Shown piece after piece: positions 17,446 through 55,293 of a stretch of 64,000 nucleotides of DNA. How positions within the stretch are numbered: the stretch's first letter is position 1; every line of letters begins with the position of its first letter. Position numbers and translations under genes: made by a program. A model generated the notes under the pieces. It was not told the origin of the DNA. It did no database searches and worked only from the letters and a program-made list of their open reading frames with translations. Source of the DNA: Lampris incognitus (taxonomy: Eukaryota; Chordata; Actinopteri; Lampriformes; Lampridae); assembly GCF_029633865.1 (NCBI RefSeq), contig NC_079219.1, forward strand, positions 57,378,046 through 57,442,045, given 5' to 3'.

Positions 17446-18689
17446 AGACGTTATTCGTTAATGTTAATAGTGATGTGGACATGCTACAAAGCTTAATTTA
17501 AATGTGCCAATTATTTTCCTCGTGGCAGCTCAACTCCGGATCTAAAACAAGGCAAGTTTGCTTCTTCTCCTATGAGAAACATAATTAGCCGAATTTAAAA
17601 AAAAGGGGGGGGGTTGAAAACTGGTTCAGGTGGGTTCAAGCTGTGTGCTTTTGATCGGCAGGGGATTTTAAGCCTCTGATTGGCCGAAGCAAAAAAACGA
17701 TTGCCAGTTATCCCGCCCATTGTAAGTAGTTGGCCCGCCCTCTCCAAGCCTCCGGTCTGCAGAGAATAGTCAAACCAGAGAAGCTGATCAGAAAGATGCG
17801 GCCCGTGTCTCGGCGACTGCACCACCCATTTTGCGCCCTTGTCGCCATTCATGGTCGGGTCTGGCGCTAAAAGTACAAAGGGCTGGTTTACCAAGAGATA
17901 TAGGGATGACGAAGAGTTGTGTGAACTGTTTTAAGTTTCATTTATCTCTAAACATTTCTTATTGTTTTCTTCATTTTTCTTTCTATCACACCGAGCGGAT
18001 AGTTGGGTTGTACGTAGCACTGAGATCTGTTTATTCTTGGTGCATGACACGATATGGTTTTCTTTTTCCTCTTTCTCTCGTGTGTTTTTGGTGCGTTATC
18101 TTGTTTCTGCTATTGTTCACTGTAGTTGAGTTTGTATTGTGCAACGCGACTTGCATTGAATTTAAAGTACACAGTACAGCGGGGGTTGAGTTTGAAATGT
18201 ATAGTCGCTGAATTAATTTAAGAATAGGCGAGAGGGGCTAGGAAAGTATACTTCCTCCTCTTTCGAACTGTAACAAATCATGCATGCATCATGCATGCAT
18301 GCATCATGCACGCGTCGCATCATCGTGCATGCATCGTGCATGCATCATGATCTGTTCGCTGAGTGATGTGTGGATCTGTTGATCACTTCAAATTATTGGC
18401 AATGGTTTATTTGTGTGTTACATCCTGCTTATTGATATGTTGGAAATAAATCATTCATTCGTCCTAAATTTTAACCTCACGCTTACTTTATTCGAACCTT
18501 TACCTGCCAGTGTTTGTTCAACATCATTATTATTGCTGCCAACAATAAAGTTCATTGTCTTTATTTACTTTTGTTGTGACCATCGAATGTGAAGGTGTGA
18601 GGTTATTTACGGTTGGCTGGTCCGATGATGTATGTGTACAACGTGCCTGCATCGTTTGTATTTTGTCAACAAAAAAAAATAATCTGCCA
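17446..18689. other. No gene recognised; ATGCATGC tract
   Basis: Short open frames here do not resemble known proteins. At 18277-18350 there is a run of CATGCATGCATC units, alternating purine-pyrimidine over long stretches. AATAAA hexamers occur near 18449 and 18544, but no coding exon is linked to them. Confidence 0.4.
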
Positions 18690-19200
18690 TTGTCAAGCCG
18701 GGCGCGCATGCGCAAGAGCAGTGGCCGCCATTTTGCACGCGTCTGTCGCGGACGTTAAACGTCACCGATTCAGACCTTTCTTTGATTGTTTGTAGCGCCG
18801 CAATCTCGAGAAAACCCGCACCGGGAGGGACGCCAGCGCCGCAGCCGAAGGTAATTGAAACGCACATGCGCGACATTTTACTGCTGCCGCTTTTTAACGT
18901 TTCGCTCGGGCCAGAGAAGGCGCTCATCGCGACGTTTGCGGCGGCCAACTCGCGTGATACGGAGAGCGGGTGGAAATGGTGCAGTGCCAGTGCGGTGCGC
19001 ACCGGCGCGGAAGGCAAGGGTCGCTAACTAAAGCTAGCATCCGCGCCACGGCCGCCGGCCGCCTCGGGTTCGAGTTGCGGCTATGGGCGCCACGAAGCGG
19101 AGGCGTCCACGGTTCACGACGCGTTACGGGTGGATCCGCTAAACCCGACGGAACCGTTGCGGGCGACAGCGGGAGCTCGCTAGCTGTACGTTTCGATGCC
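18690..19200 (+). promoter_or_regulatory. CpG-rich promoter candidate with NRF1 and YY1 motifs
   Basis: CpG density rises sharply relative to the preceding kilobases. A textbook NRF1 palindrome, CGCGCATGCGCA, lies at 18703-18714, and a YY1 motif, GCCGCCATTTTG, at about 18724-18735. A second NRF1-like site, CGCACATGCGCGA, lies near 18860. A possible first-exon donor, CCGAAG|GTAATT, is at 18850/18851. The arrangement is that of a TATA-less housekeeping promoter. The assignment to adar (first coding exon about 9.8 kb downstream, same strand, no other gene between) is inference. Confidence 0.6.
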
Positions 19201-19417
19201 CACGTCTGTGGTTGGTAGTGTTGAGTCTCAATAGCTTCTTCTTCTCTTCTCGATTAAGGTTTGATGAATACGGTGGCCGAACCTTAAAGGGGACTATACC
19301 CCCCCTCCTCCTCCCCAAGTTGTAGATAAAGTGCGAATTGGTTGCAACGTTCATTAGTTCATCAGTTTTACCTGCGTTCCCCCCCCCCTCCGGTGCTGTT
19401 GCCTGGTTAATTTTGTG

Positions 19418-19453
<36 letters not shown>

Positions 19454-20099
19454 GTTGCCGGTGAAACTTCAATGCGGGCGTTGCAAGTTTGAAATTGCTA
19501 TTTGCGATCCCTGAAGTTGAAAGGATGCCCTCTTTGCAGCGTGTGAGCCTGTTTGAACGGATAGCGGATGTAGAGCCCCCCCCCCCCCATTGAAAGAAAA
19601 ATTGAACAAAATAAATGAATAAATTGCCCCCCCCTCCCCTCAATTTGGCCCAACCCCTGACCAAGTTTACCTGTTTCCCCCCAGAAGTTAAAGTCGCCTG
19701 GCCCGTTGTTCCCTCGGACACGGCTGCTCGGTTCAGATGAGCGTGCGTGACTGAAGCACGTGTGTTGAGGCACGCGACAAGGGCATCCGGATTTCTCCCC
19801 TTTGTCCGCGTTGTCTTCCCCCCCCCCCAAATGTTCCCTTTAGCCCGCTTAAATCGTACACTCCCCGTTATTCGTATCGTCGATTTTTAACTGTCTCTGC
19901 AGAGTTTACCGTGGCTTGCTCTTGAAAAGGTCGCGTTCCAGCCGTCCGCCTGTCGCAGGGGTACGCTGCATAGAGCAACCCCCCGACGGCTGACTCTCGT
20001 AAGTGGGGTAAAAGGCCAGATGCGCGCCGGTGTTTTCGTGCTTAACTTGTATATAACTATGACATCCCCTTCGGTGCCTCCTCGTCGTCCCCCCCCCCC
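19201..20099. other. Between the two promoter candidates; simple repeats
   Basis: It contains a TC microsatellite at 19421-19450 and several C-runs (19380-19389, 19577-19589, 19819-19828). It is moderately CpG-rich. No exon is recognised. Confidence 0.45.
19421..19450. repeat. (TC)n microsatellite
   Basis: An uninterrupted CT dinucleotide run on the plus strand. Confidence 0.95.
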
Positions 20100-20595
20100 C
20101 CCGGAGCGCGTCTGCGGAGGGTCACGTGACACGGCGCGTTACGCCGGCTTTCGGAGGAAAGGAAAACGAAACTTAGGTTGTCGCCATCGGGCCCTGCTGA
20201 ACTTTCTTCGCGTAAAACGCGCCGACGGGATATGTGAACTGACTCTACCGCCGCGGCTCTTCTCTATAGCAGTGCATGTTTCCTTTTACCGCGGAGTGTA
20301 AAAGCAAGCGACATATTTGGCGTTTTGCAGAGAGAGTAAAGGTGGGATCCTGTAAACAATCCGGAAGACTGGAGGGGGGGAAAACTTGGCGTTGTACAGC
20401 TGTAACTTGGTATGTTTGCACAAAGAAAAAAATCCGGTCTGATCCTCTCCGTCGACTTGTTGCATTGCTCTTTGTGAGAGGCACCCCCCGGGTCTGTTTG
20501 CGCAAATCTGGGTTTCCCTTTATCGCGTCCTTGCGGAGACAACGGGAGCAACGTCCTCCCCTCTTCTCACCGTCGCCGCCTTCAGTTTGCCCCAG
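20100..20595 (+). promoter_or_regulatory. Candidate interferon-inducible promoter and first exon of adar
   Basis: A CpG-rich block carries the palindromic E-box GTCACGTGAC (20121-20130). About 30 bp later comes AGGAAAACGAAACT (20160-20173), which fits the ISRE consensus RNGAAANNGAAACT at every position. The block ends with the consensus donor CAG|GTGAGA at 20595/20596. In mammals the ADAR1 p150 promoter is interferon-inducible through an ISRE (established knowledge). Here the same logic is inferred because the next plus-strand gene is adar. The exact start site cannot be read from sequence. Confidence 0.6.
20160..20173 (+). promoter_or_regulatory. Perfect ISRE motif
   Basis: AGGAAAACGAAACT matches RNGAAANNGAAACT exactly. 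It is the binding site class of ISGF3 (STAT1/STAT2/IRF9) and related IRFs. Confidence 0.7.
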
Positions 20596-20839
20596 GTGAG
20601 AACCAGCGTGCTCCGTTAGGCCCTGTGCTTTGTACGTCACACTAGTACGTTGGGTTGTCTGTGCGACACGCAAAATATGAAATAACTTCTCATATTTGTT
20701 TTTTTAAAAAAAACAAACAACCCCTGCCCTGATTGTCTCTGTCGGTTTGGGATATTTTTTTTTGTTATTTGTGAGACCGCCCATCTGTTACCACCATCTT
20801 TTTTTTTTTTGCGCGTATATGAAGCGAGACAAGGTTGGA

Positions 20840-22132
20840 TCGCGTGGGGATAGTGAACCAGGAAGTGCGGTGGATTAGCAAGGAGGAAGTGAGGGCCGCT
20901 ATGAGGAGGATGGGGAGTGGAAAGGCGGCTGGGCCGGATGACATACCTGTGGAGGCACGGAGGTTTTTTAGGAGAGGTGGCAGTGGAGTTTTTAACTAGA
21001 TTGTTTGACACAGTCTGGGAAGGTGAGAGGATGCCTGAGAAGTGTACATGTACCGATTTTCTTGAGTAAGGGTGATGCGCAGAGCTGTGGTAATTGCAGA
21101 GTTATAAAGTTGATCAGCCACAGCATGAAGATATGGGAAAGAGTAGTGGAGGCTAGGTTAAGGCGAAAGGTGATGATCAGCAGCAGCAGTATGGTTTCAT
21201 GCTGTGAAAGAGCACCACAGATGTGATGTTTGCTTTGAGAGTGTTGATGGTAGAAGTATAGAGAAGGCCAGAAGGAGTCACATTGTGTCTTTGTGGATTT
21301 AGAGAAAGCACATGACAGGGTGCCGTGAGAGGAGGTTTGGTATTTTATGAGAAAGTCGGGAGTGGCAGAGAAGTATGCAAATGTTGCAGGATATGTATGA
21401 GGGCAGTGTGACAGTGGTGAGGTGTGTGGTAGGAGTGACGGATGGGTTCAAGGTGGAGGTGGGATTACATCAAGGATCAGGTCTGAACCCGTTTCTTGTT
21501 TGCAATGGTGATGAACAGGTTGACGGATGAGATCAGGCAGGTGTCTCTGTGAACAATGATGTTCGTGGATGAAAATGTGATCTGTAGTGAGAGTATGGAG
21601 CAGGTGGAGGAGAGCCTGGAGAGGTGGAGGTATGCACTGGAGAGAAAAGGAATGAAAGTCAGTAGGAGCAAGACTGAATACATGTGCGTGAATGAGATGG
21701 AGGACAGCAGAATGGTGGGGATGCAGGGAGTAGAAGTGACGAAGGTGTATGAGTTTAAATACTTGGGGTCAACTGTTCAAAGTAATGTGGAGTGTGGAAG
21801 AGAGGTGAAGAAGAGAGTGCAGGCAGGGTGGAGTGGGTGGAGAAGAGTGTCAGGAGTGATTTGCGACAGAATGGTATCAGCAAGAGTTAAAGGGAAGGTT
21901 TACAAGATGGTTGTGAGACCAGCTATGTTATATGGTTTGGAGACGGTGGCAATGACGCAAAGACAGCAGATGAGGCTGGAGGTGGCGAGTTGAAGATGGT
22001 AAGATTTTCACTGGGAGTGACGAAGAATGACAGGATTAGGAGCAAGTCTATTAGAGGGACGGTTCAGGTTGGACGGTTTGGAGACAAAGCAAGAGAGGCG
22101 AGATTGAGATGGTTTGGATGTGTGGAGAGAGA

Positions 22133-27950: not shown

Positions 27951-28471
27951 GTTGTAATGTACATGAACGAAAAGTGGGATCCAGCATGTTAAACCAGTAA
28001 AATATGAAGTGAGTAGAAAGGCTACATGCTGGCATTGGCCAACTGAACTCTTCAGTAGATTTGTCAGAAGTTGGGGTGATGTATTCTCCTACAACACCGC
28101 CACCTTCAGTCTAACGCACACCACCAACACTGTCCTCTACATCTACACTGCTTTTTTCAAAATTTGAGTGAGCAGAAATGGACCATAAACAAGTGCTTAC
28201 TTACTTTGTAAGACTTGTTTGTATTTTCTGCTTTATTTAGACAGGACAGTAGAGTGTGACAGGGCTAAAATTTAAATGGTGAGATGGAATGCAACACAAG
28301 TCCTTGGCTGGATTTGAACCCAGTGCAGTGATGTTAGGCCAGAGACTAAATGGTTTATGTGCCTATCTGTTAAGTCTCAAAGACATCTTGTGTTTTGAGA
28401 TTGATGTCTTTTTTTTTTTTTGCAGATTGTCTTATATGTTTAATCACCATGTCCTTTTGTTTTTGCTTCAG
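27951..28471. other. 3' end of probable adar intron 1
   Basis: It ends in the pyrimidine-rich TTTTGTTTTTGCTTCAG at 28471, the most likely acceptor for the first coding exon. Alternative AGs lie at about 28424 (TTTTTTGCAG) and 28483. Confidence 0.45.
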
Positions 28472-28608
28472 CTGTTGTCAGCAGGAGATCAGAGCCTGCT
28501 CTGCCATCCCACCAGGGTCTGCTGTCCTTGCTACACTGCAGAACACACTGCCATTAAGAAGCTGCAAAGCCAGCTCCAACGGGCCCCTTCCATCCCGCCC
28601 TCTACGCT

Positions 28609-30779
28609 ATGAGCAGAGGTAGAGGAGGGCCTTCTAAAGAACACTACCACAGACCTCCACTGCCCCAGCTCCAGGCCAAAAATTATTACTACAGGCCCCA
28701 CCCAGACAACCCCCATCCAAGAACTCCTCCACAGCAAGCTCCATATACAAGTGACGGCTCCTGCCCCAAACCCCCTGCTGTGCTCTCCCAATCCACAGCT
28801 AGTCCTTTCCCACCCTCTGCTCCCCCCCTATTGGGCCACATACCAGTAAAACATCCTACAGCCAAACTCCCCAACGGATCAGATAGTTGCGACCCCAGCA
28901 CAGCACCCGGTTCCTTTCAGTATCTGCAGGTCAGCTTTTTGCGGGGACAGAGTCGTGAGGCCCCACAATTTAGAAGCAGTCTCCAAGGAGGTGGGGGGGA
29001 AGCAGCACCCAGCAGGGGCTCACTGCACCAGCACCAGATAGGGTACGGTAGGCACTCTTACCCAAATTGTAACTCTTGGGGTAGAGGGGGCTACAACCGG
29101 GACCAGAGTCTGCTGCACCCATCCAACGGTGGAGCTTCAAGAGGCACTGTAGGCCCTCAGTACTGGAATCATAACCAAGCACAAGCTAAAAACCACAACC
29201 AGTACTCCAATAGACAGCTGTGCAGCCAAGAAGACTTGATATCTGAAAGTTTTCAGAATTTGTCCCTTCATAGAGACAGGTCCTACAGAGGAAAGGGAGA
29301 CTGTTTTGATAGAGCATTTGTGTCGAACAGCTCAATCAGTCAGACATTTAATAAAGTGCATCTCACTCTCACCCCCAACATTGAGGAGCTTGTGTATAGG
29401 TCCTTGGATGCATTGAGGTCAAGTGAGAGTATCTCGGCAAAATTGCTTGCAAAAAAGCTGCGCCTGCCCAAAAAAGTTGTCAACCAGGCTCTCTATTCTC
29501 TGGAACGTTCACAGAAGGCCTCCAAACAAGGTGTTCACCCTCCGGAGTGGACTCTGTATAGACAGCCTTCCCAAGACTGGGAAAATCCAAACCCAAAACC
29601 AGGAAGCCCACATTCTCAGCAGTGGGTCTGTTCACAGCACTCTGGGAATCAAAACCCTGAGCTTACGTTAGAAGCAGAAACAGAAAAAACCCAGACACAC
29701 ATTGAAGAAAAAGATTCTGATGGTGAATTCAGTTCCTCTTTGTCCTCCTCCTCCTTAGAATCATCTGACTTCTACCAGAAAGAATCCCAATCACCAGCTA
29801 AACTCAAGCATCGGGTGAAACAACAACCTTTTACTTCCAGTTCCACTAGCCAGGACCTCAAGACAATCACCATGACAGAACAAAAAGAGAAAATTCTGCA
29901 GTATCTCCTTCAGTCAGGGAAGGCCACTTCTCTTGTCATAGCGAAGAACCTGGGCTTTAAAAATGCCAAGCAGGTCAGTCCCACCCTCTATTTCCTGGAG
30001 AAGCAAGGCGAGGTCACCAAGAATAGTGAGGTCAACCCTCCCACTTGGGAACTGTCCAATCATCGCAGAGAGAAGATGGAAAGGAGCGTCAAAGCCTTGC
30101 AAGGGCTTGCAGCAGCCGCAAGCAGTCAGATGGAAGTGGGAGCCGTTGGTGAAGAGACAGGAGCTGAGTCCGTGTTACTGCCATCAATACTACCATCACC
30201 AGGGCTTAAGCCTCATCCACCCCAGGAAAGCTGGCAGCCGCAAGAAAGCCCCAGCGAAGTAAGTGGCCTTTTAAACTTTGAGGCAGGGAGCAGTAGTTAT
30301 GTACATAAAGATGTCCCAGCATGGGCAGCAGGAGAGGTCAACACCACAGACCAGTGCTTTGGAGAATCCCTCCCAGCTCTGGAGCCCCTTCCACAGCCAG
30401 ACCTTTACCTTACTCACCCTAGCTCCTTCATCATCAACTCCTCCATTCCTGACTGCTTTTCTCCATCTTCTTTCTCCCCTACTCAACTCCCTCAACCCCT
30501 CTGTCAGGAGAAAGAGGCCAATGGAGGGCAGTGGACCACCGACGACATCCCTGAATTCCTCAATGCCATTCGCCGAAAGACAGATGCTGAGAAACTGGCT
30601 GAAGACGGAGGGACTGTTGCTGTGTCACTGGCGGCCCCCCCACCTCAGAACCTGTGGGCTAAGTTACAGGAGGTGAGGCTGAAGAATCCCGTCAGTGGCC
30701 TCATGGAGTATGCACAGTACTTAGGCCAGAACTGTGAGTTCCTGCTCCTCGACCAATCCGGGCCCTCCCATGACCCCAG
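28609..30779 (+). CDS. adar: adar coding exon 1: NES, both Z domains, first half of dsRBD1
   Basis: Residues 1-723 plus two bases; donor CAG|GTCAGT. The Met is followed by an RGG-containing start (MSRGRGG). [10 protein letters not shown] near residue 110 resembles the FLKGQ segment of human p150. Z-alpha keeps the recognition residues N292, Y296 and PPEW (311-314). The second Z domain has PPTW (477-480). Low-complexity Ser/Pro linkers lie between them (370-410, 520-640). dsRBD1 starts at NPVSGLMEY (693). The single very long exon carrying both Z domains parallels mammalian exon 2. Confidence 0.95.
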
Positions 30780-44900: not shown

Positions 44901-46280
44901 GTGATAGGACGAATAATAACGTGTCCTCCTGTGCTGCTTTGCACCGCCGGCACATAATTATTGAAATAAACGGTAAGAACCGTGGTGGCTACAACTGCAG
45001 TGACAGCTCATGCCTGAGGAACAGCTGGCAATTACATATTCAGCATGTCTGGTTTCAGTCTCCATGTAAACCCCAGCGAAGTTGTTTGAAACCCCAAATC
45101 CCACATTGCCCAGCAGTGTGATGCAGCCCTCACACTGACCTACACACTTTACACAAACCTGCTTCATCCGCTACGTCCCTGTGCTCCGCTGGCTCACTTC
45201 GCTGGGCGAAACTGTCCTGAACACAACATGCCCCCCCCAAACCTCTCCCATGCTTATCTGGTTTTGCGCTGCAGGTGGGAAGAGTGAGCGTGTACGACTC
45301 GACGCGCCACACAGGCAAGACCAAGGAATCCAGTGTGAACTGGAGCTATCCAGACCAACTCAGCGTGGAGGTGCTGGATGGTACCAAAGGCAAACTGGAC
45401 GGGTGCGTAGTGTACAATGTGACTTGGCTGTGTCAACCCTTTTGAGGTGATAGTTTGGAATGTGTTATTAGAAAAATAATTTGGATCCACTCCTAAAAAG
45501 ATGAACCGGAGCCAGATTTGCAGTTACTGGGTAAGCAGTTTGTCCCACAACTGCTGGTAAATCTGTTTCCTTTTGTAAGATGTTGCAGAATGTAATGGTC
45601 AGATCTTTTGCTGTAATGACTTCATATTGTTATTCTAAACTAATGACTCTTGACAGCATTTTGGATGGATGTCAGACATTTGGAGCTTTAATGTTTTGTT
45701 TTCAGTGGACGCTGTCGGCTAAGCACAACCTGCCACCACAAGTAACCAGTAAAATAACTGAAAGAGTGAACTTCAGTTTAAGCTAATGGACAAACAGGAT
45801 GGAGTGAGGAGGACGTTTTTACAGAGCCTGGAATGCTTGTTAAACTATGATGCCATTCACGAGCCTTATTCTTGTTTATTTCTAAAAAAAAAAATGTTTT
45901 TGTTAACACGGAACTGACAAAACCACCCGTCTCCCTTTATCTTCCTCAGGCCCAAGCTGGACGTGTCCCGCGTGTCCAAGTCCAACCTGTTCCGTCTGTT
46001 TCGGATGTTGTGTCAGATGGGTGGCCGCCATGACCTCCTCTCTCTGCCTTCCTATGCCCAGGCCAAGTTGTCGGCTACGTCATTCCAGCTGGCCAAGCAG
46101 CACTTTTTCAAGGCCCTTAACATCCACGGGTATGGGGCCTGGATCGGCAAACCGCTGGAAGAGAAGAGCTTTGAGGTGGGGGAGGGGACCAGCAGCAGAG
46201 GGGGAGGTTTCGCCCAGGGATGCAGCAGCAACAACAACGGAGGCATGACTGCGATCGAGAAAGAGGAGGCAGCCATGTAG
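28609..46280 (+). CDS. adar: ADAR1: dsRNA-specific adenosine deaminase (14 coding exons)
   Basis: The enzyme deaminates adenosine to inosine in double-stranded RNA. In vertebrates this marks self dsRNA and limits MDA5, PKR and ZBP1 signalling (family knowledge). Joined exons: 28609-30779, 31909-32104, 32531-32733, 35591-35726, 35968-36206, 36343-36499, 37239-37407, 37794-37887, 38019-38135, 38326-38453, 39637-39819, 39969-40081, 45275-45402, 45950-46280. All introns are GT-AG and all phases fit, giving 1454 aa. Domains: export-signal-like segment 210-220; Z-alpha about 257-318; second Z domain about 424-484; dsRBDs about 693-765, 826-900 and 951-1025; deaminase about 1060-1440. Zinc ligands are H1111 (CHAE, with E1113 as proton shuttle), C1165 (PCGDG) and C1233 (SCSDK). 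The start is set by an in-frame TAA at 28555 with no earlier ATG in this exon. Human p150 is shorter (1226 aa); the excess lies mainly in the N-terminal linkers, plus about 30 residues at the C-terminus. Confidence 0.97.
29872..29874 (+). promoter_or_regulatory. Conserved internal start codon for a p110-like isoform
   Basis: The ATG of M422 has the context CACCATGA, with A at -3, and opens [12 protein letters not shown] directly before the second Z domain. Human p110 starts at Met296 in MAEIKEKICDYL, the matching position. The upstream start (GCTATGA) has a moderate context with G at -3. Confidence 0.6.
30780..31908 (+). other. adar intron after coding exon 1
   Basis: No gene is seen. An AT-rich segment is followed by sequence rich in GCTAGC/AGCTAA words (31258-31310). 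The intron ends in TCCCTCTGTTAG at 31908. If not spliced, the first exon's frame runs on for 16 codons to a stop at 30828. Confidence 0.7.
31909..32104 (+). CDS. adar: adar coding exon 2: second half of dsRBD1
   Basis: Residues 724-789; acceptor CTGTTAG, donor ACG|GTGAAG. The dsRBD helix-2 signature [18 protein letters not shown] (K744, K745, K748) binds the dsRNA major groove in this family. The exon ends in phase 0, in an acidic linker. Confidence 0.95.
32105..32530 (+). other. adar intron 2 (between coding exons 2 and 3)
   Basis: It starts with a GT/GC dinucleotide stretch (32105-32141) and ends TTGTCATCCAG. No repeat or gene is recognised. Confidence 0.75.
32531..32733 (+). CDS. adar: adar coding exon 3: first half of dsRBD2
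   Basis: Residues 790-857; acceptor CATCCAG, donor CG|GTACTG. A linker is followed by [20 protein letters not shown] and GPPHDPR, the N-terminal helix and first strands of a dsRBD. The Arg codon is split across the intron in the same place as in dsRBD1 and dsRBD3, as expected for duplicated domains. Confidence 0.95.
32871..32917. repeat. (TAC)n microsatellite
   Basis: A run of about 15 TAC trinucleotides in adar intron 3, abutting the 3' end of a minus-oriented LINE. Confidence 0.95.
32918..33470 (-). mobile_element. RTE-like LINE 3' part (minus), adar intron 3
   Basis: On the minus strand: [60 protein letters not shown] and [20 protein letters not shown]. This is the same family as the plus-oriented copy at 20840-22800, and so antisense to adar. 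Confidence 0.82.
33489..33615 (-). mobile_element. R1 retroposon (minus), adar intron 3
   Basis: It reads ATCCATCCATTATTCGAACC, GCTTATCCTGCTCTCAGGGT and CCTATCCCAGCAGTCATTGG, as in the copy at 10619. It lies between two pieces of the same LINE family. Confidence 0.7.
33616..34090 (-). mobile_element. RTE-like LINE endonuclease fragment (minus), adar intron 3
   Basis: On the minus strand the endonuclease C-terminal part reads [40 protein letters not shown], with broken upstream frames near 33900-34090. Together with 32918-33470 it may be one element that lost its middle. Confidence 0.7.
34093..34440 (+). mobile_element. tRNA-headed SINE, family A (plus), adar intron 3
   Basis: The head CCGCGGTGGTGTAGCGGTTT and B-box-like GGGGTTCGCGCC are followed by a body containing ATCCGACTATGGCCGGACTC and TTCGCCTTGTCACGAAAGTG. 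The tail is AT-rich with A-runs (AAATAAATTTAAAAAAATG). A highly similar copy lies in the opposite orientation at 40433-40827. Confidence 0.82.
34441..35049 (+). other. adar intron 3, unassigned
   Basis: Unique-looking AT-rich sequence with T-runs at 34847-34856 and 34976-34986. No exon is recognised. Confidence 0.45.
35050..35470. repeat. Dispersed repeat in adar intron 3
   Basis: The phrasing TCTTTATTTTCAAGTTAGAT near 35085, and GATTTGGGTCTTTCCATTTA followed by CATCAGTCTCGTGGCCAAGA (35393-35440), resembles the 3' region of a fish LINE read in antisense. No coding domain is visible, so only a repeat call is made. Confidence 0.35.
35591..35726 (+). CDS. adar: adar coding exon 4: second half of dsRBD2
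   Basis: Residues 857-902; acceptor TCTTGCAAG, donor AAG|GTGAGA. It encodes [20 protein letters not shown] and [20 protein letters not shown]. The KKxxK patch here is KKAGR (K877, K878, R881), slightly diverged from the KKVAK of dsRBD1. Confidence 0.95.
35968..36206 (+). CDS. adar: adar coding exon 5: linker and first half of dsRBD3
   Basis: Residues 903-982; acceptor TTTTGTGCAG, donor AA|GTATGT. A Pro/Ser linker and [10 protein letters not shown] precede [20 protein letters not shown] and GPPHEPK, the N-terminal part of dsRBD3. Confidence 0.95.
36343..36499 (+). CDS. adar: adar coding exon 6: second half of dsRBD3
   Basis: Residues 982-1034; acceptor CCTGCTCAG, donor GAG|GTACTG. It encodes [20 protein letters not shown] and [20 protein letters not shown], with the RNA-contact patch K1002, K1003, K1006. 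In mammals the third dsRBD also carries the nuclear localisation signal. Confidence 0.95.
36500..37238 (+). other. adar intron 6
   Basis: It holds the R1 retroposon at 36731-36837. The remainder is AT-rich, with a T-run at 36520-36531, and ends TTGCTCTAG. Confidence 0.7.
36731..36837 (+). mobile_element. R1 retroposon (plus) with perfect duplication
   Basis: It is flanked by GTTTAGAGACAC at 36719-36730 and 36838-36849, a perfect 12-bp target-site duplication, and ends in TGGATGGATGGATG. This sets the family's borders well. Confidence 0.88.
37239..37407 (+). CDS. adar: adar coding exon 7: start of the deaminase domain
   Basis: Residues 1035-1091; acceptor TGCTCTAG, donor G|GTATAT. It encodes [20 protein letters not shown] and [15 protein letters not shown], the first helix and strand of the ADAR deaminase fold. 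Confidence 0.95.
37505..37665. repeat. Teleost dispersed repeat in adar intron 7
   Basis: It contains TTACGTTACAGTCATTTAGC, CGACGCTTTATCCAAAGCGA and CTTACAATAAGTGCATTTG, a phrase found very widely in fish genomes. Boundaries are approximate. Confidence 0.55.
37794..37887 (+). CDS. adar: adar coding exon 8: catalytic HAE motif
   Basis: Residues 1091-1122; acceptor TGCCATTAG, donor CG|GTAGAA. It encodes the core [17 protein letters not shown]1111 is a zinc ligand and E1113 the catalytic glutamate. Confidence 0.96.
38019..38135 (+). CDS. adar: adar coding exon 9: deaminase domain
   Basis: Residues 1122-1161; acceptor CCTCCTCAG, donor AG|GTGGGA. It encodes [20 protein letters not shown] and [12 protein letters not shown], the stretch linking the first two zinc-ligand motifs. 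Confidence 0.96.
38326..38453 (+). CDS. adar: adar coding exon 10: PCGDG motif
   Basis: Residues 1161-1204; acceptor TTGTCCCAAG, donor [18 protein letters not shown] holds the zinc ligand C1165. The spacing H1111-C1165 is 54 residues, close to the 56 of human ADAR1. Confidence 0.96.
38526..39535. mobile_element. Non-autonomous DNA transposon in adar intron 10
   Basis: The left end GTGTATACCGATACCAGTAT and the right end, read inward as GGGGATGCACCGATACCAC, are related inverted termini of a type common in fish genomes (GGTGCACCGATAC). It has no transposase, and contains a TG microsatellite at 38921-38948. Confidence 0.6.
39637..39819 (+). CDS. adar: adar coding exon 11: SCSDK motif
   Basis: Residues 1204-1265; acceptor CTGTTCCAG, donor G|GTTAGA. 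It encodes [20 protein letters not shown] and [20 protein letters not shown]1233 is the third zinc ligand, 68 residues after C1165. Confidence 0.96.
39969..40081 (+). CDS. adar: adar coding exon 12: deaminase domain
   Basis: Residues 1265-1302; acceptor TCTGGTAG, donor GAG|GTATCG. It encodes [20 protein letters not shown] and [11 protein letters not shown]. It is followed by a 5.2-kb intron full of mobile elements. Confidence 0.96.
40433..40827 (-). mobile_element. tRNA-headed SINE, family A (minus), intron 12
   Basis: It is flanked by a perfect 15-bp duplication, CAACACACTAGATTT, at 40418-40432 and 40828-40842. The head is at the right (GGTCCGCGGTGGCGTAGCGG on the minus strand) and an A/T-rich tail at the left. 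It is close to identical over most of its length to the plus copy at 34093. Confidence 0.9.
41510..41847 (-). mobile_element. tRNA-headed SINE, family B (minus), intron 12
   Basis: On the minus strand it runs from the head GGGGCGTCCGGGTAGCATAG (right end) to the end ACTTGTACAATTGGGGAGAA type sequence at the left. It matches the plus copy at 57870, with an internal deletion around 41597. Confidence 0.8.
41848..42490. repeat. Unassigned dispersed fish repeat, intron 12
   Basis: Phrases such as CATGGCAGTCTATGGGAGTT (41885) and CTCTGAACGGTCCACCCAGT (42115) are familiar from repeated fish DNA. I see no coding domain and cannot place boundaries. Confidence 0.35.
42500..44122 (-). mobile_element. 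Penelope-like retroelement (minus), intron 12
   Basis: On the minus strand, N-terminal RT-associated sequence with [16 protein letters not shown] starts near 44110. RT pieces follow ([60 protein letters not shown]). Next comes the GIY-YIG endonuclease module at about 43090-42836 ([36 protein letters not shown]), then a 3' end to about 42500. RT plus C-terminal GIY-YIG defines Penelope-like elements. Frames are interrupted and the palm motif region is missing, so it is dead. Confidence 0.85.
44123..44910 (+). mobile_element. Penelope-like partial copy (plus), head-to-head with the minus copy
   Basis: It starts abruptly in the endonuclease ([20 protein letters not shown] at about 44122-44182), runs through the same coding 3' end to a G-run at 44346, is interrupted by a MITE (44384-44737), and ends with GAGACTGAAGGGGTCACTTA and CATGAACTGATTCAACTTTC at about 44905. 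Adjoining 5'-truncated copies in inverted orientation are typical of Penelope-like insertions. Confidence 0.82.
44384..44737. mobile_element. MITE inside the Penelope copy
   Basis: The terminal inverted repeats are AGGGCCCTGACACACCA and, inward from the right end, AGGGCCCAGACACACCAAAC. There is no coding sequence. The target duplication is not clear, so the superfamily is left open. Confidence 0.7.
44911..45274 (+). other. 3' end of adar intron 12
   Basis: No repeat or gene is recognised. It ends in the pyrimidine-containing acceptor TTTTGCGCTGCAG. Confidence 0.6.
45275..45402 (+). CDS. adar: adar coding exon 13: deaminase domain
   Basis: Residues 1303-1345; acceptor GCGCTGCAG, donor GG|GTGCGT. 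It encodes [20 protein letters not shown] and TKGKLDG. This is the first exon after the repeat-filled intron 12. Confidence 0.95.
45950..46280 (+). CDS. adar: adar last coding exon
   Basis: Residues 1345-1454; acceptor CTTCCTCAG, stop TAG at 46278-46280. It encodes [40 protein letters not shown] and PLEEKSFEV. The last match to mammalian ADAR1 is around KPLEEKSF (about residue 1422). The remaining 30 or so residues are Gly/Ser/Asn-rich and end in EKEEAAM, a C-terminal extension not present in the human protein. Confidence 0.95.
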
Positions 46281-49190: not shown

Positions 49191-51540
49191 CTTGGATCTT
49201 CTACCAGGATTCTGGAGCTAGCGCAGAGGTGTTCAGATCCTCGTGTGTTCTTCACGACGGGCGTTGGGTCATGTTTTGTAACTGCGTTTGCGGTGAAGGG
49301 GCTCGCTCCCTGCCTCTCATGTGTGGCCAGGTCTTGAGGACGACTAAGGACGGCGGTTTGGAACGATGCAATATATACATCATGTACATACAAATACATG
49401 AACACACAGATGTATATGCCATAACGCGTGTTTGTATGAGCTGCATATATGTCTGTGTGTGTATGTATATGTATATATTTCATGTATATATTTTTTAATT
49501 CGTACCTTTTAAATGGATTTTTTTGTTCTCCCAAAATGTTTTCAGTTGTAATGGGATATACTGGGTTTTTTTTCTTTTTGTTTTTTTTTTACAGATGATG
49601 TCTGGCAACTTTAAAATAAAATTTCGAAAGATTAAACGGACCGGCTGTGTTCTTCTGAGTGATGCCCGCGGGGCAGTTTCTGCTCATCAGAGTTTCATCG
49701 GAATGTATGGGCAGAAACAAAATGTCCAAAATCGAGGTGCAGGAATAAGCAAATTCAAAACGTTTAATGAGAATATTTACTATGCACCATCTGTTTTAAC
49801 CTCATGCAGGGTTCGACTAGACGTAGCTGTCTTACTGCAAACATGGTGTTTTGTGTGCGTGTGCATGTGTGTGTGTGTGTGTGTGAGAGCATACACATGG
49901 AGGCACAAGTGTAAAGGGGGGCCCCAACCCTTCACTGTGGATATAATAATTCACAATAAATCTCTGCTGATGGTCTACACCGAAACAGTGACCAGAACAA
50001 TATTTTTGTACCGGAAGTGACTTGTGAAGTTGTGACACCTGCTTTTACGGCACAAGTCCCCCTGTAGGTCTGGGGCTGCTGTGCTGGCGGCTCCTGACTG
50101 AATACATCTGTAACCCTTCTGTTGTTCTACGGGTCAGAAAGGCCCATAACAGTGTTGAACAGCAGAGAAAAGACTGAATCATATTTTTTCAACCTGAAAT
50201 GTGATGACTTTTCCTAGAGGGACCCCAACACTAGAAACCGTGAGATTGTTTTTGTTCATATTTTCTAGAAAGCTGTCACCACTAGGGTACTAAGATTGTC
50301 TTGGGCTCATGTTTGACCCTATAAAAACGAATGGTGTCCTATGATTAAATGCAGTCTTTCTGCACTGTGAAGAGGGAAAACCCAGATAGTTTGTGATGAA
50401 TGACAGCTTGTTTCTGCGTGCATAATAGATTTGGGGTTTAAAATTAAATTAAGTTGCTTTAATTTGGAGGTTTATTGAAGGCGGGTCATAAATGACCCTT
50501 AAAACCAGGGCAGTATACAGAAGGTGTGGACAACACAAGTTAAATAGAGGCCACTGCAATACACCCAATTGACCAGCAGGTGGTGGTGATGTCAACGCTT
50601 GAGGCTGTGTGTGTGTGTGTGTGTGTGTGGCGAGGCAGGCAGCATTTATTCAGCCCCAGGTGACCTGTTAGTCATGGCTAAGGCTAGACGCAATCCTATG
50701 GGGAGATTAGATCAGGTTGTGTGTGGCTCTCCCCATCTCTCTCTTTAATACAACAGGGAATTATGGCACTACTGTGTTTACCGCCAGTTATTTACAAAGC
50801 TATTTGCCAATTCTGGAAAAGATTCCATTAAGAATTTGATAATTTGCTCATCACGTTTTGTTTTTTAACTCAGAGGCTGCGCGTTCCCGTGCTTGTATAA
50901 ACGTGTACTAGGGTGGGCCCACTTCAATCAAGATTGCTTGACCTGTCAGCTGGATTCATTCTGTCAATCAATCACTTCGGTCCAATCGGGCACCTTCGGA
51001 GGGTGGGACTAATGAGTAAGGGTGAGAGAGAGAGGCAAAGAGAGAAGAGGTAAAGAGTGATGGGAGAAAAATCTTGGAGGAGTCGCATAAAGAGGGGAGA
51101 GAGGAGAGCTGGTGGATAGAGTGAAATATTAGTCCGGGCCGAAGGGCTTAAACGAGCCAATCGATGCTCTCCGATGAAAATAAATGAGAGAGGGGAAGGA
51201 GGGAATACATGAGGGGGGGAGGCATGGCTCGGATGAATAGCTAAACAAACAGAAGAGGATGAGAAGCTCTGGGAGAAGTCCAGGGCGAGTTTATAATAGC
51301 CACCCGTGGTGGGAGAAGAGAGGGGGGGGGATCGGTGAGGCCCAAGAGAGAAAGGGGGAGAAGCATGTGAAAGTAACATGCAAACAGTGAATGGGTGAAA
51401 ATCCAGTATAGTGTCACTGTCACTTGGCTCGAAAGCAGCAGAAAACTGGACTTATGGAAGAACCGTGCAACCATCTCAAGACACACCACAATCCAAGTGC
51501 ACGCTCCGTCTCACGCCGACATCGAAACTCCTCAAACAAC
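49191..51540. other. No gene recognised
   Basis: The stretch contains GT runs at 49866-49886 and 50608-50629 and AATAAA hexamers near 49609 and 49953, either of which could end the adar transcript. Short frames do not resemble known proteins. The phrase GGGTCATAAATGACCC near 50485 is a short palindrome. Confidence 0.4.
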
Positions 51541-51547
51541 TCTGCTA

Positions 51548-52540
51548 CGTTTACACGGCGACGGTCTTGCTAAAAACGGCAGAGTATTTCCTCTGCGTTT
51601 TAAAAACGTTCCGCGTTCAGACGACGCCGTTTTGAATGCGGTCCGCATGCACACAGATCCGCAAGAAACGGCTGAAAACGCTGTAGTGTGCACGCCAGGC
51701 CACTAGTTGGCGGTGGAACTGCGTGGTAGAGAGCCCTTCCGGCGGACGCCAATTCTCAGAGCTGCGAGTAAGCGAACGGACCACGGCGAGAGTGCGCTCT
51801 TAATTGGGAATCACGCCAGTCAAAATACTCAGACGTTTTGGAGGCGGTATCCGTCCCGCATCTTCGCTGGTCACGGCAATGACGCAGCGGAGCTACGCTG
51901 TGCTTGGAGGAGCGTTACCAAACTTAGCACAAACACAGCTCGGCGGTCCGCCATTGTTTACGTTGTCGTCTTCTCCTTGTCGGTGATTCGCACATGGCAA
52001 TTTGGCCGAAAACGTAATACGCATGTGCGAAGTGGAGCCGTGACGTCACCGTTTTCACAGGAGCCGTTGTTTTTTTTTGCTAGTTTACGCGGCGGCATTT
52101 GGCCGAAAACGTAATACGCATGTGCGAAGTGGAGCCGTGACGTCACCGTTTTCACAGGAGCCGTTTTTTTTGCTAGTTTACGCGGCGGCAATTTGGCAGA
52201 AAAAGTAATATGCATGTGCGAAGTGGAGCCGTGACGTCACCGTTTTCACAGGAGCCGTTGTGGTTTTTTTTGCTAGTTTACGCGGCGGCATTTGGCCGAA
52301 AACGTAATACGCATGTGCGAAGTGGAGACGTGACGTCACCGTTTTCCCAGGAGCCGGTTCGGGTTTTTTTGCTAGTTTACGCGGCGGCGCTGGACTTGCG
52401 TTCTCTAAAGACTTCGCCCCGGAACTCGGTTTCAGAAGTTCGCGCTTTCCGGCCCCCAAAACGCCGCCGTCGTGTGAACGGACGACCAAAACGCAACAGT
52501 ACTTAGCCGTTTCATGGTGAAAACGTTGCCGTGGAAACGG
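51548..52540. mobile_element. CpG-rich MITE-like element with internal CRE repeats
   Basis: The ends are related inverted sequences: CGTTTACACGGCGACGG at the left and, inward from the right, CGTTTCCACGGCAACG. The interior has four tandem units of 95-98 bp (about 51998-52388), each with GCATGTGCGAAGTGGAG, the palindromic CRE TGACGTCA (52041, 52138, 52233, 52331) and CTAGTTTACGCGGCGGC. CpG density is high. There is no coding domain. Confidence 0.65.
51998..52388. repeat. Four tandem units of about 97 bp, each with a CRE
   Basis: The spacing between CRE palindromes is 97, 95 and 98 bp, the differences lying in the T-run of each unit. Confidence 0.93.
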
Positions 52541-52909
52541 CCCTTCGAAGTGACGCTAAACGGCGACGGCCGCTGGCACGTGCGTCGACAGTTTTGAACC
52601 ACGCGCCTCCTCGACCAGGAAGTGACGCGGCCTCCGCAAAGAACGGGATTTAAGGGTGAGTTTATCTCGCCCCCCCCCCTTGTTATTCGCCTGACCCGTT
52701 TCAATAATTTCCACGGTTCTGACAGAGTGGACTGGCTTCTAACGTGACGCGGTAGGCCGCACGTTGAGAGAGCATATTTCACGACTACATTCGTGACAGC
52801 ATGTTGTATACTAAAAGAAACCCGCTACAATGTAGCGGTATACAGGTCCTGACCTTTACCAATGATCAATGTGTGACCCATGACCACAGTTCAGGAGCTG
52901 AATTTACTA
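52541..52909. other. Unassigned, flanking the minisatellite
   Basis: The sequence is CpG-rich to about 52660, then ordinary. A short frame is not convincing. No gene is recognised. Confidence 0.4.
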
Positions 52910-55293
52910 CTTAGTGCAGTTTATTACAACGAGACTGCCCAACCCTTAGTGCAGTTTACTACAGCGAGACTGCCCAACCCTTAGTGCAGTTTACTACAAC
53001 GAGACTGCCCAACCCTTAGTGCAGTTTACTACAACGAGACTGCCCAACCCTTAGTGCAGTTTATTACAACGAGACTGCCCAACCCTTAGTGCAGTTTATT
53101 ACAATGAGACTGCCCAACCCTTAGTGCAGTTTACTACAGCGAGACTGCCCAACCCTTAGTGCAGTTTATTACAATGAGACTGCCCAACCCTTAGTGCAGT
53201 TTATTACAACGAGACTGCCCAACCCTTAGTGCAGTTTATTACAATGCGACTGCCCAACCCTTAGTGCAGTTTATTACAACGAGACTGCCCAACCCTTAGT
53301 GCAGTTTATTACGAGACTGCCCAGCCCTTAGTGCAGTTTATTACAGCGAGACTGCCCAACCCTTAGTGCAGTTTGTTACAACGAGACTGCCCAACCCTTA
53401 GTGCAGTTTACTACAGCGAGACTGCCCAACCCTTGGTGCAGTTTATTACAACGAGACTGCCCAACCCTTAGTGCAGTTTATTACAACGAGACTGCCCAAC
53501 CCTTAGTGCAGTTTACTACAGCGAGACTGCCCAACCCTTGGTGCAGTTTATTACAACGAGACTGCCCAACCCTTAGTGCAGTGTATTACAACGAGACTGC
53601 CCAACCCTTAGTGCAGTTTATTACAACGAGACTGCCCAACCCTTAGTGCAGTTTATTACAACGAGACTGCCCAACCCTTAGTGCAGTTTATTACGAGACT
53701 GCCCAGCCCTTAGTGCAGTTTATTACAGCGAGACTGCCCAACCCTTAGTGCAGTTTGTTACAACGAGACTGCCCAACCCTTAGTGCAGTTTATTACAACG
53801 AGATTGCCCAACCCTTAGTGCAGTTTATTACCACGAGACTGCCCAACCCTTAGTGCAGTTTATTACAACCATACTGCCCAACCCTTAGTGCAGTTTATTA
53901 CAACGAGACTGCCCAACCCTTAGTGCAGTTTATTACAACGAGACTGCCCAACCCTTAGTGCAGTTTACAACGAGACTGCCCAGCCCTTAGTGCAGTTTAT
54001 TACAACGAGACTGCCCAGCCCTTAGTGCAGTTTATTACAGCGAGACTGCCCAGCCCTTAGTGCAGTTTATTACAAGGAGACTGCCCAACCCTTAGTGCAG
54101 TTTATTACGAGACTGCCCAACCCTTAGTGCAGTTTATTACAAGGAGACTGCCCAACCCTTAGTGTAGTTTATTACAACAAGACTGCCCAACCCTTAGTGC
54201 AGTTTATTACGAGACTGCCCAACCCTTAGTGCAGTTTATTACAACCAGACTGCCCAACCCTTCGTGCAGTTTATTACAACCAGACTACCCAACCCTTAGT
54301 GCAGTTTATTACGAGACTGCCCAACCCTTAGTGCAGTTTATTACAACCAGACTGCCCAACCCTTAGTGCAGTTTATTACAACCAGACTGCCCAACCCTTA
54401 GTGCAGTTTATTACAACCAGACTGCCCAACCCTTAGTGCAGTTTATTACGAGACTGCCCAACCCTTAGTGCAGTTTATTACGAGACTGCCCAACCCTTAG
54501 TGCAGTTTATTACAACCAGACTGCCCAACCCTTAGTGCAGTTTATTACGACGAGACTGCACAACCCTTAGTGCAGTTTATTACAACGAGACTACCCAACC
54601 CTTAGTGCAGTTTATTACGAGACTGCCCAACCCTTAGTGCAGTTTATTACGAGACTGCCCAACCCTTAGTGCAGTTTATTACGACCAGACTGCCCAACCC
54701 TTAGTGCAGTTTATTACAACGAGACTGCCCAACCCTTAGTGCAGTTTACAACGAGACTGCCCAGCCCTTAGTGCAGTTTATTACAACGAGACTGCCCAAC
54801 CCTTAGTGCAGTTTACTACAGCGAGACTGCCCAACCCTTGGTGCAGTTTATTACAACGAGACTGCCCAACCCTTAGTGCAGTTTATTACAACGAGACTGC
54901 CCAACCCATAGTGCAGTTTACTACAGCGAGACTGCCCAACCCTTGGTGCAGTTTATTACAACGAGACTGCCCAACCCTTAGTGCAGTGTATTACAACGAG
55001 ACTGCCCAACCCTTAGTGCAGTTTATTACAACGAGACTGCCCAACCCTTAGTGCAGTTTATTACAAGGAGACTGCCCAACCCTTAGTGCAGTTTATTACA
55101 ACGAGACTGCCCAACCCTTAGTGCAGTTTATTACAACGAGACTGCCCAACCCTTAGTGCAGTGTATTACAACGAGACTGCCCAACCCTTAGTGCAGTTTA
55201 TTACAACCAGACTGCCCAACCCTTAGTGCAGTTTATTACAACGAGACTGCCCAACCCTTAGTGCAGTTTATTACGACGAGACTGCCCAACCCT
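52910..55293. repeat. 35-bp minisatellite, about 68 units
   Basis: The consensus unit is CCCTTAGTGCAGTTTATTAC followed by AACGAGACTGCCCAA. Variants lack a few bases (TTACGAG instead of TTACAACGAG) or carry AACCAG. A 246-bp stretch at 53401-53646 recurs at 54806-55051 with about one base changed, and another block at about 53304-53394 recurs at about 53685-53775, so there is higher-order structure. Apparent reading frames here are by-products of the repeat. Confidence 0.97.

Follow-up and report, generated by a model that had tools for sequence, protein, structure and literature searches.

The question raised by this locus is whether a fish adar gene possesses an interferon-responsive promoter of its own and, if so, whether such a promoter would decide which protein is made or how much of it. 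Human and mouse ADAR1 have an ISRE-bearing promoter, in an arrangement in which the inducible promoter PiA stands alongside the constitutive promoters PcB, PcC and Pc2; exon 1A holds the p150 AUG, and the exon 1A mRNA gives rise to both p150 and p110 through leaky scanning (PMC12925331). An earlier note on the present DNA had proposed that a CpG-rich block upstream of adar constitutes an interferon-inducible first exon. In the window (the whole 64-kb stretch of DNA analysed, G000:C12:57378046-57442045), the landmarks of adar itself are the following.

28472-30763, plus strand: adar exon 2, with an approximate 3' limit (candidate acceptor at 28472, alternative at 28426)
28609-28611, plus strand: first ATG of the long open reading frame, a p150-like start with G at -3
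29377-29556, plus strand: Z-alpha domain (PF02295), by profile match
29857-30081, plus strand: second Z-domain stretch, matching the Z-beta structure 1xmk
29872-29874, plus strand: p110-like ATG in the context CACCATG, aligning with the ADAR1 Met that immediately precedes the second Z domain
45963-46154, plus strand: last match to the adar deaminase domain (PF02137), by profile match

The frame opened at 28609 carries two Z-alpha stretches, and later exons hold matches to dsRNA-binding motifs (dsrm, two above the Pfam cut-off and one below) and to the adenosine deaminase domain (A_deamin); the gene has the Z domains, dsRNA-binding motifs and deaminase domain of an ADAR1 gene, and the best solved relative of its product is an ADAR1 construct (8e-48). 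An in-frame stop (28555-28557) precedes the long-form ATG and is itself preceded by the acceptors for exon starts 28426 and 28472, both pyrimidine-rich; exon 1 is thus unable to add N-terminal residues through these two good acceptors. The next in-frame ATG is that at 29872, whose Met we take to be AUG296, the p110 start of PMC12925331. The two ATGs between these starts are both out of frame, against means of 8.9 in codon-order shuffles (P 0.004) and 3.9 in synonymous shuffles (P 0.19); because of the latter value, the shortage does not prove selection for leaky scanning. This exon anatomy fits the proposal that the long form begins inside the big exon, the promoter then setting amount rather than N-terminus.

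Among the reading frames tested between 20.6 and 28.5 kb, adar is the next plus-strand coding sequence, as had been claimed, save for a fragment resembling reverse transcriptase at 21553-21990, whose 27.2 bits fall slightly short of the cut-off of 29.6. On the other side, ten nearby upstream reading frames that were scanned contained no Pfam family above cut-off (four gave weak sub-threshold matches), no Rfam family was found in the window, and the nearest identified upstream gene, a nicotinic acetylcholine receptor on the minus strand, lies outside the window (L026, G000:C12:57368046-57378045); no rival gene near the block was identified in these searches. An upstream coding gene as owner of the CpG islands was considered and set aside on the scan of the same ten frames. 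The receptor gene and adar stand head to head at about 20 kb.

The elements of the proposed promoter and first exon are as follows.

19600-20820, unstranded: CpG-rich block with approximate limits, from the observed/expected (o/e) CpG ratio
20123-20128, unstranded: E-box CACGTG, on the upstream side of the ISRE
20160-20173, plus strand: strict ISRE AGGAAAACGAAACT, a pattern match without mismatch
20174-20595, plus strand: candidate non-coding first exon, deduced from the donor and the ISRE, within which the putative transcription start would lie if this reading is right
20276-20595, plus strand: upstream reading frame with its ATG in a weak context, 156 codons long if spliced to 28472
20593-20601, plus strand: donor CAG/GTGAGA (exon end 20595), 10.75 bits

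Each of the four features on which the earlier note had built its case is borne out: the ISRE consensus is matched at every position, in the single strict site of the 64 kb; the CpG o/e of its surroundings is about 1.3 (300-bp windows beginning at 20001 and 20101 give 1.30 and 1.32) versus 0.54 for the whole window; the gap to the E-box, given as about 30 bp, measures 31 bp; and the consensus donor at 20595 is strong. The E-box as such is frequent, with 10 copies of CACGTG in the window, and comparable or higher CpG scores occur at 18.5-19.2 kb and 51.4-52.6 kb. The latter stretch (51400-52600) is very CpG-rich, with o/e up to 1.7 and repeated reading frames; frames at 53332-53646 and 54740-55051 are built of tandem units (approximately CSLLQRDCPTLSAVYYNETAQPLVQF) and probably represent a minisatellite. 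A repeat origin was also considered for the block at 20 kb and ruled out, since 19900-20820 matches only itself in a genome-wide comparison and is therefore single copy.

How much weight can the ISRE bear? The site at 20160-20173 is the sole match to AGGAAAACGAAACT in the window even with up to two mismatches; however, 39 of 100 shuffled sequences contain at least one match at that tolerance, and the weight thus rests on the exactness of the fit. With both strands counted, the 64 kb hold a single copy of the strict consensus RNGAAANNGAAACT, whereas a first-order Markov model predicts 0.11 occurrences in the window, 0.005 in 18501-20820 and 0.003 in 19600-20820; for the pattern RGGAAANNGAAACT with at most one mismatch there are three matches versus 0.90 expected, that at 20160-20173 alone being exact. 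Across the genome, the exact 14-mer is ordinary, at the level expected by chance (11 sites in 1.48 Gb versus 25 for the reversed control), and CpG o/e exceeds 1 at two of the eight AGGAAAACGAAACT sites examined, namely the one upstream of adar and one other (L005). The 21 other stretches of the same genome (L023-L043; 200,300 known bases, selected without regard to the ISRE) hold one strict ISRE, in CpG-poor DNA. The evidence is the conjunction of a strict ISRE with a good donor, in a unique CpG-rich block and at a gene in which an ISRE was expected beforehand. A second exact AGGAAAACGAAACT in CpG-rich DNA (L044:2994, G000:C12:12090631) precedes by 1061 bp the ATG of a gene that encodes an XPG N-terminal domain and that we take to be aste1; that gene could be interferon-responsive.

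Other elements were sought around the ISRE. The best fit to a KCS-like element beside it, using the letters of the PKR element, is 9/15, a score reached by 94% of shuffles, and neither a GAS (TTCNNNGAA) nor GGGCGG occurs in 18501-20700. A scan for bacterial promoters and terminators, which is of no relevance to such DNA, found nothing.

The donor lies 422 bases downstream of the ISRE; six plus-strand and five minus-strand sites in the window reach its strength, and such donors number about 0.09 per kb per strand in L023-L043. The distance from the block to the first coding exon is 7.9 kb. The ATG at 20276 complicates this first exon: its frame, spliced to 28472, runs across the p150-like start in a different register, and if transcription started before 20276 it would lower p150 production, which favours a transcription start downstream of that position. 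With the acceptor at 28426, two more ATGs (28436 and 28449) stand ahead of 28609.

Genes of the interferon system elsewhere in the genome served as controls. A CARD_2 search gave three matches, two of them within one gene, the third (C21) being left out of the comparison; the first CARD exon of the two-CARD gene resembles MDA5 (9.3e-16) more than RIG-I (5e-7), and we take the gene for ifih1/mda5 (L043, G000:C14:3674212-3682211). In the promoter of this mda5-like gene, GAAACTGAAAGC lies in CpG-rich DNA, 137 bp ahead of the chosen ATG, with CACGTG at -192 and -236; GAAACTGAAAGC fits the core GAAANNGAAA and not the strict consensus, and the same 8 kb contain three further GAAANNGAAA cores in CpG-poor DNA. 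Among 14 IRF loci, picked from 25 domain matches and examined over 10 kb upstream of each, one has a strict ISRE, in CpG-poor DNA; the STAT loci (12 domain matches) entered no count. The one positive control, mda5, thus resembles the adar block, whereas the IRF set does not. Genome-wide, CACGTG followed by an ISRE core occurs at 1930 sites versus 993 for the reversed control, an approximately twofold excess that is not interpreted here because many of the listed sites, all from contig C1, are copies of a few repeats.

A second CpG island lies further upstream.

18501-19200, unstranded: CpG island exceeding that at 20 kb, a candidate for the constitutive promoter of adar (CpG o/e up to 1.5)
18704-18713, unstranded: NRF1-type site GCGCATGCGC, by motif match
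18724-18734, minus strand: YY1-type site, reading GCCGCCATTTT on the plus strand, by motif match
18848-18856, plus strand: possible donor AAG/GTAATT (exon end 18850), 9.0 bits

This island may be the constitutive promoter of adar. The reading that we prefer, with a probability of roughly 60%, is that at about 20.1-20.6 kb there lies an interferon/IRF-responsive promoter of adar that works like mammalian PiA; adar is probably up-regulated by interferon here much as in mammals. In such a promoter, the ISRE at 20160 would be bound by ISGF3 (STAT1-STAT2-IRF9) or an IRF, the E-box may be occupied by a USF/TFE-type factor, and transcription would begin tens to a few hundred bases downstream of the ISRE. 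The resulting non-coding first exon would end at 20595 and be joined by splicing to exon 2 at 28472 (or 28426), and the second island would supply constitutive transcription. From the position of the start codons, either promoter would yield an mRNA with both the p150-like and the p110-like start, and the two proteins could both be made from that one mRNA through leaky scanning; the effect of interferon would be more adar mRNA, because both ATGs (28609 and 29872) lie in exon 2. The strict ISRE where 0.003 are expected, the CpG ratio, the single-copy status, the strong donor, the presence of adar downstream with no rival gene identified near the block, the similar mda5 promoter, the rise of adar with virus or poly(I:C) in other fish and the ISRE promoter of the human and mouse genes argue for this reading; the lack of a KCS-like element better than shuffles and of GGGCGG, the mda5 site that fits just the core, the single strict ISRE among 14 IRF loci, the chance-level frequency of the 14-mer genome-wide and the ATG at 20276 argue against it.

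Three other accounts of the block have to be weighed against this one. It is conceivable, if unlikely, that adar starts at the 18.5-19.2 kb island only, with a first exon ending at 18850, so that the ISRE, 1.3 kb downstream, would be an enhancer within intron 1 and the donor at 20595 would go unused. That island is the more CpG-rich of the two and holds the NRF1-type and YY1-type sites as well as a donor of its own; however, the donor at 18850 is weaker than that at 20595, and the mammalian ISRE, as described in PMC12925331, belongs to a promoter that serves its own first exon. We regard as somewhat less probable still that the block represents either a constitutive promoter or ordinary CpG-rich DNA whose ISRE match arose by chance and confers no interferon response. 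The genomic frequency of the 14-mer, the many motifs that had been looked over, the absence of a KCS-like element and the strict ISRE at just 1/14 IRF loci would all agree with a chance match, but so exact a match was hardly to be expected in this block, in a gene where an ISRE had been anticipated, and adar can be induced by virus in other fish.

Bidirectional activity is common among CpG islands, and this property, together with the 7.9-kb intron and its retroelement fragment between the block and adar exon 2, leaves some room for a transcript other than adar, unannotated or antisense, as the true product of the block. Such a transcript is highly improbable, given ten upstream frames devoid of any Pfam family above cut-off, a window devoid of Rfam families and an identified upstream gene that lies outside the window.

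The preferred reading, an interferon-responsive promoter of adar at 20.1-20.6 kb, agrees with what has been reported from other fish. The gene is up with reovirus and poly(I:C) in grass carp (PMC4337036), Adar is among the effector genes increasing over time in NNV-infected sea bass (PMC12246263), adar falls within the main response cluster in virus-infected zebrafish larvae (PMC10051318), and trout red cells made to express a viral glycoprotein show raised adar (PMC6220650); ADAR is also named in a lumpfish poly(I:C) paper (PMC10300353). The remark in the earlier note that conserved interferon control in a fish would be notable needs a correction, since virus or interferon control of adar is already published for grass carp, sea bass, zebrafish and trout; what stands of its inducible first exon is the unique, CpG-rich, promoter-like block with the strict ISRE and the good donor. 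Among the matches listed from the open-licence literature, none was seen that dealt with the isoform logic of fish adar or described an ISRE in its promoter. In zebrafish adar mutants, ifih1 and other response genes are raised in an MDA5-type interferon response (PMC9489775); adar is therefore a brake in fish too.

If the interferon promoter of adar is old, this feedback predates mammals. One might go further and suppose, with the odds against it, that the two-promoter layout of ADAR1, with a constitutive island upstream and an ISRE promoter nearer exon 2, predates the split between fish and mammals; that isoform choice was at first untied from promoter choice, p150 and p110 arising from one mRNA by leaky scanning; that the p150 AUG later moved into the mammalian inducible exon; and that adar and mda5 share an E-box and ISRE module in this lineage. 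As the p150-like start lies in exon 2 here, a comparison of first exons across fish, amphibians, birds and mammals would show when the choice of isoform became tied to that of promoter. The locus offers expected biology, plus a testable twist on the origin of isoform choice.

By comparison with known systems, the closest is mammalian PiA with exon 1A: the gene is the same, and in both cases an ISRE promoter precedes its exon 2, here as a proposal, beside other promoters that are constitutive. A consensus ISRE does lie upstream of the fish gene; however, unlike with PiA, no KCS-like element was found in the block and, unlike exon 1A, its candidate first exon lacks the p150 start, the p150-like and p110-like starts both being in exon 2, and for these two reasons the block is not classed as PiA itself. 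PKR and fish PKZ provide a more distant parallel, as genes with ISRE-driven induction whose targets are double-stranded RNA or Z-form nucleic acid (PMC8297547 and PMC7137213), but they are other genes, and PKR has a KCS upstream of its ISRE. A Z-alpha search of the genome reported adar alone at E ≤ 0.001; PKZ was not seen, a weak indication of its absence because, of the two Z stretches in adar, the search reported just one. Within the same genome, the promoter of ifih1/mda5 differs from the adar block in having GAAACTGAAAGC rather than the strict consensus, a position near a coding first exon and two E-boxes instead of one, and resembles it in combining an ISRE core with CpG-rich DNA and a CACGTG within 100 bp upstream.
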